A DNA stretch of 17,057 bases, taken from positions 1 through 17,057 of the forward strand of contig CAKSZF010000026.1 in assembly GCA_934525405.1 (NCBI GenBank), written 5' to 3'. Numbering within the stretch: position 1 is the first letter of the stretch; each line of letters opens with the position of its first letter. Source of the DNA: an uncultured Faecalibacterium sp. (lineage in GTDB: Bacteria; Bacillota; Clostridia; Oscillospirales; Ruminococcaceae). Under the pieces are notes generated by a model that worked only from the letters and a program-made list of their open reading frames with translations, did not search any database and had not been told where the DNA came from. The translations under genes and the position numbers were made by a program. Of the stretch, positions 12,487-15,069 are shown piece after piece.

Positions 12487-15069
12487 TTACGCCTGCCCCT
12501 GCACAAGGGCGCGGATTTGTTTTTCCACGTTCTGCACTTCTTCGTGGAACATCCGGGCGGAAACGCGCAGTGCGCCGTGTCCAAGGATGATGACCTGCTC
12601 CATGCCGTCCGAGGTCGCCACGCGGACGCGGCGGCTCTTGCCGATTTCATGGGTGACCCGCTCGATGAACATATCGGCGGTCTCGGCCTCCTTAGTGTAG
12701 ACCACATGGATGTTGTGGTACTGCTCGATGGCGCCGGGGCTGCCGGGCACGCGGTAAGCATCAAATACCAAGATGAGCACGCATTTCTGGTAGCCCTGAT
12801 AGTTGCACAGGATGTCCATCAGCCGATGGCGGGCAGCGTCCAAGCTTTCCTTTGCCAGCGCGTTCAGCTCGTCCCACGCAAAGATGATGTTGTAGCCGTC
12901 CACCAGCAGATACTCCGGGGCAATTTCCCACTGTTCGGCGGAAAAATCCGGGCGTTCGGTCTTTTGCACCGGACGGAACGCCGCCAGCGGGTCCCGCTTG
13001 ATGGGGCCGTAGGTGCGTTCAAAAATTTTGAGCAGTTCGGCGTCCTCCTCCAGCGTGGCGCGGTAGGCCATGGCGCGGCGCTGAGGCGCAGCCTGTACCT
13101 CCGGGCGGGCGGGCTTTGCCTTGCCCCAGCCGCTTTCCACGTGCATGTGGCTGCGCACCTCGCTCCACGGCACCACAAAGCCAGCACCATGGGCGCAGAA
13201 CACAGAATCCGCGGGGTTTTCCAGATCATGCTCCGGCTGGTAGCCTCTCTCTGCAATGACCTCCTGTGCATTGTGACAGGGGCGGTAGCCGTCCAGCGTC
13301 AGGCTCAGATGTCCCCTGCCCCGGGTGTAGCTGACCACCTCCATGGGGTAGCTGCGCATGGTGGCTACCGGCGCAAAGCCGGTCAGGGTGGCCGTGTCGG
13401 TGCCGCTTTCCGGCGGATCAAAACTGCCCTCCATGCGCTGGATATCGCTCATGGCGCGGCCGATGTTCTCCACCGGCACTTCCAGCCGAAAGGCGTACCA
13501 CGGCTCTAACAGCTGGCTTTTGGCCAGCATCAGCCCCTGCCGCACAGCGCGGTAGGTAGCTTGCCGGAAATCGCCGCCCTCAGTGTGCTTGAGGTGCGCT
13601 TTGCCTGTAAGCAGGGTGATTTTCACATCCGTCAGCGGTGCGCCAGTCAAAACGCCAAGGTGCTGCTTTTCTTCCAGATGGGTCAGCACCAGCCGCTGCC
13701 AGTTTTTGTCCAGAACCTCTTCCCGGCAGTCGGCGGCAAACTGCATCCCGCTGCCCCGGGGCAGCGGTTCCAGCAGCAGATGCACCTCGGCATAGTGGCG
13801 CAGCGGCTCGTAGTGGCCTACGCCCTCCATGGGCTCGGTGATGGTCTCCTTATACAAAATGCCGCCCGGGCCAAAGGATACTTCCAGCCCGAACCGCTCC
13901 GCCAGCAGGCTGCGCAGCACTTCCAGCTGCACCTCACCCATCAGCTGCACATGGATCTCGCCCAGCGTTTCGTTCCACACCACATGGAGCTGGGGTTCTT
14001 CCTCTTCCAGCCGGTGCAGCTTTGCCAGTGCAGCGTGTACGTCTGCGCCCTCCGGCAGCAGCACCTGATAGCTGAGCACCGGTTCCAGCACCGGCACATC
14101 GCTGTCCCGCTCTGCCCCAAGCCCGGTGCCGGGCTTTGCATGGGTCAGGCCGGTCACGGCGCACACCTGTCCCGGGCCGATGGCCTCGGTCAGGGTATAC
14201 TTTGCGCCGGAGTACAGCCGCAGCTGGTTCGCTTTTTCTGCCCACGGCTCGCCGTCCGCTTCGCCGGAGAGCAGAGCCTTTACCTTCAGCTCCCCGCCGG
14301 TGACACGCAGCCACGTCAGGCGTGCCCCCTGCTCGTCCTGTGATACCTTGAACACCCTTGCACCAAAGGCGTGCAGCGCCGGGGCGGGGCGGGTGTAGCG
14401 GTCAAGCCCCTCCAGAAGTGCATCCACTCCGTCCAGCCGCAGCGCCGCCCCAAACCAGCACGGAAAAACGTGCCGCCGGGCAACTGCGGGGATAATGTCT
14501 GCATCGGTCAGGGTGCCTGCGTCCAGTATTTTCTCCATCAGCTGCTCATCGCACAGCGCCAGTGCTTCGTTGCGGGCGGCAGGCTCTGCGCCAAAATCCA
14601 CAAAACCCTCGCCAAGGCGGTGATTCAGCTGGCTGAGTAACTGTTCCCGGGTCATGCCGGGCAGGTCCATCTTGTTCACGAACACAAAGGCGGGCACATG
14701 GTAGCGCCGCAGCAACCGCCACAGCGTTTCGGTATGGCTTTGCACGCCGTCCGTTCCGCTGACCACCAGCACGGCGTAATCCAGCACCTGCAAGGTGCGC
14801 TCGGTCTCGGTGGAAAAATCCACATGGCCGGGGGTGTCCAGCAGGGTGATGGCGGTATTGCCCGCCGTAAGCAGCGCCTGCTTGGAAAAGATGGTGATGC
14901 CGCGCGCTTTTTCCAAGTTGTCGGTGTCCAGAAAGGCATCTCCGTGGTCTACCCGCCCCAGCTTGCGGATAGCACCTGCGCGGTAGAGCATGGCCTCGGA
15001 GAGGGTGGTCTTGCCGGAGTCCACATGGGCCAGAATGCCCAGTACGATCTGTTTTTGCGTTGTTTCCAT
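12487..15069 (-). CDS. TetM/EF-G-like GTPase fused to a Rae1/YacP-type NYN nuclease domain
   Basis: The 860-residue protein has two parts. Residues 1-650 are a translation-factor GTPase of the TetM/TetO group: AHVDSGKT (14-21), RGIT (56-59), DTPGH (78-82), NKMD (132-135), then beta-barrel domain II, domain III, and domain IV with tip TEGGDFRQATYRAV (496-509). The SPVSTPADF-type tip of resistance proteins such as Tet(M) is missing, so tetracycline resistance is doubtful. A helical linker at about 660-710 leads to residues 720-860, which read like B. subtilis Rae1 (YacP), a ribosome-associated nuclease that cuts mRNA in the A site: LLVDGYN (D724, N727), VFDA (D770), TKEAETAD (D799) and ATSDGMEQ (D821), all acidic positions kept. 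I infer a factor that docks at the A site and cleaves mRNA there. AGGAGC precedes the ATG. Confidence 0.9.
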   Translation of the reverse strand: METTQKQIVLGILAHVDSGKTTLSEAMLYRAGAIRKLGRVDHGDAFLDTDNLEKARGITIFSKQALLTAGNTAITLLDTPGHVDFSTETERTLQVLDYAVLVVSGTDGVQSHTETLWRLLRRYHVPAFVFVNKMDLPGMTREQLLSQLNHRLGEGFVDFGAEPAARNEALALCDEQLMEKILDAGTLTDADIIPAVARRHVFPCWFGAALRLDGVDALLEGLDRYTRPAPALHAFGARVFKVSQDEQGARLTWLRVTGGELKVKALLSGEADGEPWAEKANQLRLYSGAKYTLTEAIGPGQVCAVTGLTHAKPGTGLGAERDSDVPVLEPVLSYQVLLPEGADVHAALAKLHRLEEEEPQLHVVWNETLGEIHVQLMGEVQLEVLRSLLAERFGLEVSFGPGGILYKETITEPMEGVGHYEPLRHYAEVHLLLEPLPRGSGMQFAADCREEVLDKNWQRLVLTHLEEKQHLGVLTGAPLTDVKITLLTGKAHLKHTEGGDFRQATYRAVRQGLMLAKSQLLEPWYAFRLEVPVENIGRAMSDIQRMEGSFDPPESGTDTATLTGFAPVATMRSYPMEVVSYTRGRGHLSLTLDGYRPCHNAQEVIAERGYQPEHDLENPADSVFCAHGAGFVVPWSEVRSHMHVESGWGKAKPARPEVQAAPQRRAMAYRATLEEDAELLKIFERTYGPIKRDPLAAFRPVQKTERPDFSAEQWEIAPEYLLVDGYNIIFAWDELNALAKESLDAARHRLMDILCNYQGYQKCVLILVFDAYRVPGSPGAIEQYHNIHVVYTKEAETADMFIERVTHEIGKSRRVRVATSDGMEQVIILGHGALRVSARMFHEEVQNVEKQIRALVQGQA

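Follow-up and report, generated by a model that had tools for sequence, protein, structure and literature searches.

Organisation of the fused gene

The window, that is, the whole stretch of 17,057 nucleotides that was analysed, carries on its minus strand, at positions 12487-15069, a single open reading frame with an ATG start, 860 codons and no internal stop. Its product has the following organisation.

12487..15069, minus strand: fused gene, 860 aa (open reading frame call and Pfam search)
14392..15048, minus strand: G domain (GTP_EFTU), residues 8-226; Pfam 5.7e-48, with AHVDSGKT, RGIT, DTPGH and NKMD present
13870..14085, minus strand: EF-G domain III (EFG_III), residues 329-400; Pfam 3.3e-8
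13522..13860, minus strand: domain IV (EFG_IV), residues 404-516; Pfam 1.5e-18
Minus strand, domain IV: family-specific tip, GHYEPLRHYAEVH (residues 418-430) and KHTEGGDFR (residues 494-502)
13267..13515, minus strand: domain V (EFG_C), residues 519-601; Pfam 1.6e-17
13126..13278, minus strand: C-terminal extension, residues 598-648, with C598, Y610, S622, C625, G628 and H643
12922..13119, minus strand: linker, residues 651-716, predicted to be disordered, with a conserved motif around E678-I682-T686
12502..12909, minus strand: NYN_YacP (Rae1-type) nuclease domain, residues 721-856; Pfam 6.6e-49

The matches to GTP_EFTU, EFG_III, EFG_IV, EFG_C and NYN_YacP each lie above the Pfam gathering score, and EF-G domain 2, at residues 236-309, stays under its cut-off (19 versus 27 bits). 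The GTPase motifs and the EF-G fold place the protein in the translational GTPase superfamily. The initial annotation, made from the sequence alone, had read the locus as a GTPase and a NYN nuclease joined in one protein, and the uninterrupted frame with both domains above gathering score bears this out. Its assignment of residues 1-650 to a TetM/EF-G-like part is correct for the domains found there but not for their extent: the EF-G-like domains stop near residue 601, and the extension and the linker come next.

A sequencing frameshift or an assembly join of two genes, named in the initial annotation as a possible objection, is ruled out by two observations. The nearest genome compared encodes a homologue of 860 aa, 97% identical over its full length, and the same architecture recurs among homologues, PF05991 (NYN_YacP) being present in 120 of 120 among the matches listed (7997 scored). 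A search of that nearest genome for a stand-alone rae1, also suggested earlier, found none.

Distribution and replacement of stand-alone Rae1

The spread of the architecture was surveyed in 393 genomes of the class, with a threshold of E 1e-110 for the GTPase. NYN_YacP matches occur in 250 of the 393 genomes and GTPase matches in 162; once lengths and split cases had been resolved, the fusion was assigned to 136. The NYN match lies within an open frame of at least 700 codons in 129 of these, while three of the remaining seven are broken (G045, G191 and G236) and four are cut by contig ends (G157, G173, G186 and G296). The fused gene of G191 (locus L124) is split into pieces of 285 and 540 codons and is possibly a decaying copy.

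An intact stand-alone NYN_YacP protein above the cut-off was found in one of the 136 fusion genomes (G285), against 113 of the 257 genomes without the fusion (Fisher's exact p 1.6e-24, uncorrected for relatedness). This mutual exclusion partly follows lineage. Both forms occur, in different genomes, within five families (f22, f23, f27, f28 and f47), and in f27 within one genus. Moreover, in one fusion genome (G371) the stand-alone copy is apparently left only as broken pieces on another contig. Weak partial NYN matches below the cut-off, in frames of 163-165 codons, were left out of the count in three fusion genomes (G121, G175 and G209), and a contig-edge NYN fragment below the cut-off was dropped from the stand-alone count in G262. 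One genome (G287) has a NYN_YacP domain in a frame of 342 codons, about twice the usual stand-alone size.

Neither the fused nor the stand-alone form is present in 144 of the 393 genomes, which indicates that the function is dispensable. A GTPase without NYN domain was found at E 1e-110 in 27 genomes, 21 with and six without any NYN_YacP match in the genome; in these genomes the GTPase has no nuclease attached, so cutting need not be part of what it does by itself. The pairing of unfused GTPase and stand-alone Rae1 (21/27, versus 92/230 of the other non-fused genomes) was considered as evidence for a partnership and is given little weight, a single family (f38) contributing 14 of the 21.

Among 398 sampled genomes of the phylum, 35 gave a match at E 1e-110, of which 28 were classed as fused and seven as unfused by open-frame length; 20 of the 28 fused copies lie in genomes labelled as other classes. 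The fusion is present in many gut bacteria, and named carriers include Monoglobus pectinilyticus, on a 518-kb record listed as a plasmid, and metagenome-assembled genomes (MAGs) of Lawsonibacter, Merdimonas and Pseudobutyrivibrio.

The nuclease domain and the missing Rae1 tail

The window protein scores 166.5 bits against PF05991 (gathering score 24.6), and residues 720-856 match the Bacillus subtilis Rae1/YacP structures 5mq8 and 5mq9 at 1e-23. These matches agree with the NYN/YacP assignment of residues 720-860 in the initial annotation. Its description of the domain as complete has to be corrected, as the match covers profile positions 1-138 of 166 and the C-terminal tail of Rae1 is absent.

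In the alignment to B. subtilis Rae1, D724 pairs with D7 and N727 with N10, and the acidic residues at 770, 799 and 821 are conserved. No substitution of D724, N727, D770, D799, E803 or D821 occurs in any of the 44 fused or 41 stand-alone proteins aligned, sets which include a few near copies. The catalytic acidic residues and the DGYN motif that characterise Rae1/YacP are thus present in every fused protein of the alignment. The residues D724, N727, D770, D799 and D821, noted earlier as kept in the window protein, are kept throughout, and the loss of acidic residues in homologues that would have spoken against a nuclease role is not seen in any of the 44.

The region downstream of the active site behaves differently in the two forms. 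Counted from position 838, the tail of the stand-alone proteins has a near-constant length of 47 to 52 residues, compared with 20 to 60 in the fused proteins. A LEKxRR-type tail motif, a pattern defined post hoc from the alignment itself, is present in 36 of 41 stand-alone and in 0 of 44 fused proteins. The last residue of this motif corresponds to R166 of B. subtilis Rae1, and, according to passages of PMC6613710, a screen for efp suppressors yielded R166P as one of several rae1 mutations whose effects fit a loss of function. As a proline could disturb a helix, this mutation is supportive of a role for the tail and no proof of ribosome contact. The absence of the motif from all 44 fused proteins suggests that their NYN domain now depends on its GTPase partner and, taken together with R166P, would fit a handover of ribosome targeting to the GTPase.

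Passages of two studies describe Rae1 as an endonuclease that attacks mRNA in the ribosomal A site (PMC12320835, PMC6613710). The near-exclusive replacement of Rae1 by the fusion fits an A-site nuclease role of this kind; as it seems to substitute for the stand-alone nuclease, the fused protein probably cuts mRNA on stalled ribosomes.

Phylogeny and unfused relatives

A GTPase tree of 77 rows unites the fused proteins in one clade (SH-aLRT 98), inside which a single unfused protein, from a Ligilactobacillus salivarius plasmid, is placed. The sister group of this clade consists of 15 unfused proteins of 640-687 aa (SH-aLRT 84), and the Tet proteins and EF-G lie outside both. A second GTPase tree, which took 40 of the 57 fused proteins, places unfused Bifidobacterium and Collinsella proteins within the fused clade, on the branch of the window protein (SH-aLRT 94, not starred). 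The simplest history for a fused clade with nested unfused members is one fusion followed by a few transfers in which the nuclease was lost. For the nuclease domain (48 fused versus 41 stand-alone rows), a free tree search recovered no single fused clade and support was weak overall; the tree in which the fused rows were constrained together scored higher and was not rejected (p-AU 0.7).

A scan of contigs by general GTPase motifs returned mostly EF-G among its 80 loci. Thirteen fused loci, five unfused ones and L157 were used, and 61 were dropped, including three short fragments of the family. L157 stands among the 22 unfused proteins although it is merely truncated by a contig end, and for L159 the best blastp segment ends at query residue 518, so that a frame break is possible. 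Two further loci, L083 (G334) and L088 (G196), encode Tet-like GTPases that group with the Tet proteins but reach no more than 503 and 557 bits with the tet_protect model, whose cut-off is 775; their tip is of the HTHPLD type and they form a further, uncharacterised group.

The GTPase part and the case for ribosome protection

The alignment of the GTPase part comprised 44 fused proteins (window included), 16 unfused relatives, seven Tet-type and eight EF-G-type rows, with three intermediate rows kept out of the counts. The GTPase motifs are conserved across the family, with single substitutions in a few rows. H425, E428, H470, H495 and T496 occur in 44/44 fused and 16/16 unfused proteins, and in 0/7 Tet and 0/8 EF-G rows. 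In nearly all rows of the family the domain IV tip has the sequence KHTxGGDFR; its equivalents are SPVSTPADFR in the Tet rows, SPASTPADFR in TetB(P) and [YF]HxVDSSE in the EF-G rows. The tip is therefore neither Tet-type nor EF-G-type, and the initial annotation was right that it differs from that of the resistance proteins, whose loop III sequence SP[VA]STPADFR is absent in the family. The extension is a second distinctive element. C598, Y610, S622, C625, G628 and H643 are conserved in most of the 57 fused and 22 unfused proteins, with C598, C625 and H643 near-invariant in both, and this region is unaligned in the Tet and EF-G rows. That C598, C625 and H643 might form a metal site is only a guess.

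Profile models place the protein apart from both groups. It obtains 391.5 bits with the tetracycline protection model NF012153 (cut-off 775; 876.5 for a Tet(M) control) and 278.3 bits with the EF-G model TIGR00484, below the cut-off of 659.4. Among PDB entries, the family profile matches Tet(O), EF-G and Tet(M) best, with similar scores for the three.

The main alternative to a Rae1-like role is ribosome protection with an added nuclease: the GTPase would dislodge tetracycline or a different A-site inhibitor, whether of natural origin or made by competitors, leaving the NYN domain to destroy RNA on ribosomes beyond freeing. Such a function would extend the proposal of Atkinson 2015, passages of which report the gain of a YacP-like NYN domain by Tet proteins in ten clostridial species and suggest RNase-based resistance (PMC4342817). 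The Tet-like domain plan and the top structural matches speak for it, and the unfused copies that have moved keep it alive. Some unfused relatives are on mobile or horizontally moved DNA: besides those nested in the fused clade in gut Actinomycetota, the copy on the Ligilactobacillus plasmid lies near an IS1380 transposase. A RefSeq plasmid record labels an unfused copy as a Tet-family protein, and in a Bifidobacterium MAG (L154:5998-9564) the unfused GTPase is followed, 127 bases downstream, by a Mef-like MFS efflux gene, itself below its family cut-off (265 versus 675 bits). Against protection stand the score at the tetracycline protection model and, weighing less firmly than the cut-offs, the missing Tet loop III. 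According to passages of PMC4750697, Tet(M) can remain active with S508, P509 and V510 of loop III all changed; a differing tip sequence alone thus does not exclude protection and is an indication, no proof. The broad spread of the fusion and its lack of conserved neighbours (the best cluster covers 9 of 54 loci, its example being an ABC transporter protein) also argue against a resistance gene, as do two fusion genomes (G030 and G199) in which a further match, of 644 codons and 30% identity, resembles the Tet-type proteins of this analysis in both respects. Taken together, this evidence makes protection rather unlikely as the function of the fusion.

Other associations were considered. No anti-phage defence model out of 5027 in PADLOC matched at E 0.001. 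A phage gene was suggested by an 85%-identical copy in MT835563 (L100) and was rejected: the record is an unverified faecal scaffold that aligns to the window over both the fusion and the NAD(P)H-hydrate dehydratase gene next to it, and it is probably bacterial DNA within a phage collection. A second, unannotated phage record, MT835514, holds a copy at 51%.

The linker and the predicted structure

An AlphaFold2 model built from 33 sequences has a mean pLDDT of 81.2 and a pTM of 0.63. The GTPase and the extension, to about residue 650, are mostly confident except for stretches between 39 and 60, and the same holds for the greater part of the NYN domain. For residues 651-716 the pLDDT is below 50; the linker is thus predicted to be probably flexible, and the relative placement of GTPase and NYN domain is not fixed by the model. 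Fold comparison with Foldseek and VIA-align matched EF-G over about residues 2-612; no Rae1 structure was among the 50 matches listed, a result uninformative for the NYN domain because the query was the whole model.

A flexible tether whose length varies from 67 to 201 residues (across the stretch 644-719), together with the existence of each module alone in relatives, would also suit two modules that act independently and are joined merely to be made in equal amounts, the tether having no mechanistic part. We consider this improbable. The linker retains a motif (E678 in 55/57, I682 in 55/57 and T686 in 50/57 fused proteins) which has no counterpart in the unfused rows, as these end before it, and which is a possible docking element judging from its conservation. 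In addition, the Rae1 tail motif is missing throughout the fused proteins, and the GTPase tree points to a single origin of the fusion, which was then retained.

A possible mechanism

We lean towards the view that the fused protein acts as its host's functional Rae1, the nuclease now forming the C-terminal domain of a Tet-like translational GTPase through which it reaches the ribosome. Three features, namely mutual exclusion with stand-alone Rae1, an active site without variation and the missing Rae1 tail, together suggest that the fused NYN domain does the job of Rae1 and relies on the GTPase for ribosome access. The initial annotation had proposed a GTP-driven release or destruction of mRNA on stalled ribosomes, as quality control rather than drug resistance; the two modules, the invariant nuclease residues, the differing tip and the replacement of Rae1 support this in part. 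Given the EF-G fold and the intact GTPase motifs, this access would probably be at the site used by EF-G and Tet(M). Domain IV and Rae1 would need the same A-site space, so that any joint action would have to be sequential.

In the pathway that we infer, from ribosome binding and the order of the steps to mRNA as the substrate and the outcome of rescue, the GTPase in its GTP form would bind over the ribosomal A site, in the manner of EF-G and Tet(M). Recognition of a ribosome whose A site is accessible would fall to the distinct domain IV tip and the C-terminal extension. GTP hydrolysis, followed by release of domain IV, would vacate the A site. Held by a flexible tether some 65 residues long, the NYN domain could then move in and cut the mRNA. 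Cleavage would leave a ribosome clearable by trans-translation.

A bolder version of this proposal, which we put forward tentatively and hold at less than even odds, is that of a GTP-gated mRNA nuclease, in which hydrolysis hands the A site to the tethered endonuclease and cutting is licensed by the state of the ribosome, not by free diffusion. A sensor of stalled ribosomes and a cutter in one protein might in this way have taken the place of Rae1 in much of the class, the tail being discarded once the GTPase had taken over targeting. An alternative in which the NYN domain targets A-site rRNA or tRNA, perhaps as a way of inactivating or recycling faulty ribosomes, is very unlikely: passages of PMC4342817 cite NYN domains as proposed to mature rRNA and tRNA and name rRNA RNase ability as a point to test, but the domain matches Rae1, by description an mRNA A-site endonuclease, and replaces it in genomes.

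That a fusion found in nature has replaced Rae1 and lost the Rae1 tail points to ribosome targeting as a need shared by both forms, and provides a test system in one protein for how Rae1-type nucleases find stalled ribosomes. The family also bears on annotation, as genome records may label its relatives as tetracycline resistance proteins although neither the domain IV tip nor the model cut-off supports this.

Comparison with known systems

The window protein shares with Rae1/YacP of B. subtilis (5mq8, 5mq9) the NYN_YacP domain with all acidic residues aligned, and takes its place in genomes. It differs in carrying a fused GTPase and in the absence of the LEKxRR-type C-terminal tail. With Tet(M), Tet(S), Tet(W) and TetB(P) it has in common the five-domain EF-G-like plan, at about 28-31% identity, but the fused family has a different domain IV tip and the C-terminal extension. 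Identity to EF-G is 24-32% in the compared rows, and the [YF]HxVDSSE loop of EF-G is lacking.

The clostridial Tet-NYN proteins of Atkinson 2015 have the same architecture and, judged from passages of the text, are probably the same family. A literature search, with results mostly at listing level, found no description of the architecture beyond that study. The fused proteins can now be set beside Rae1 itself, the description of which the 2015 study predates. Relative to the passages of that study, the new elements are the replacement of Rae1, the loss of its tail, the unfused sister group and the comparison of the domain IV loops.
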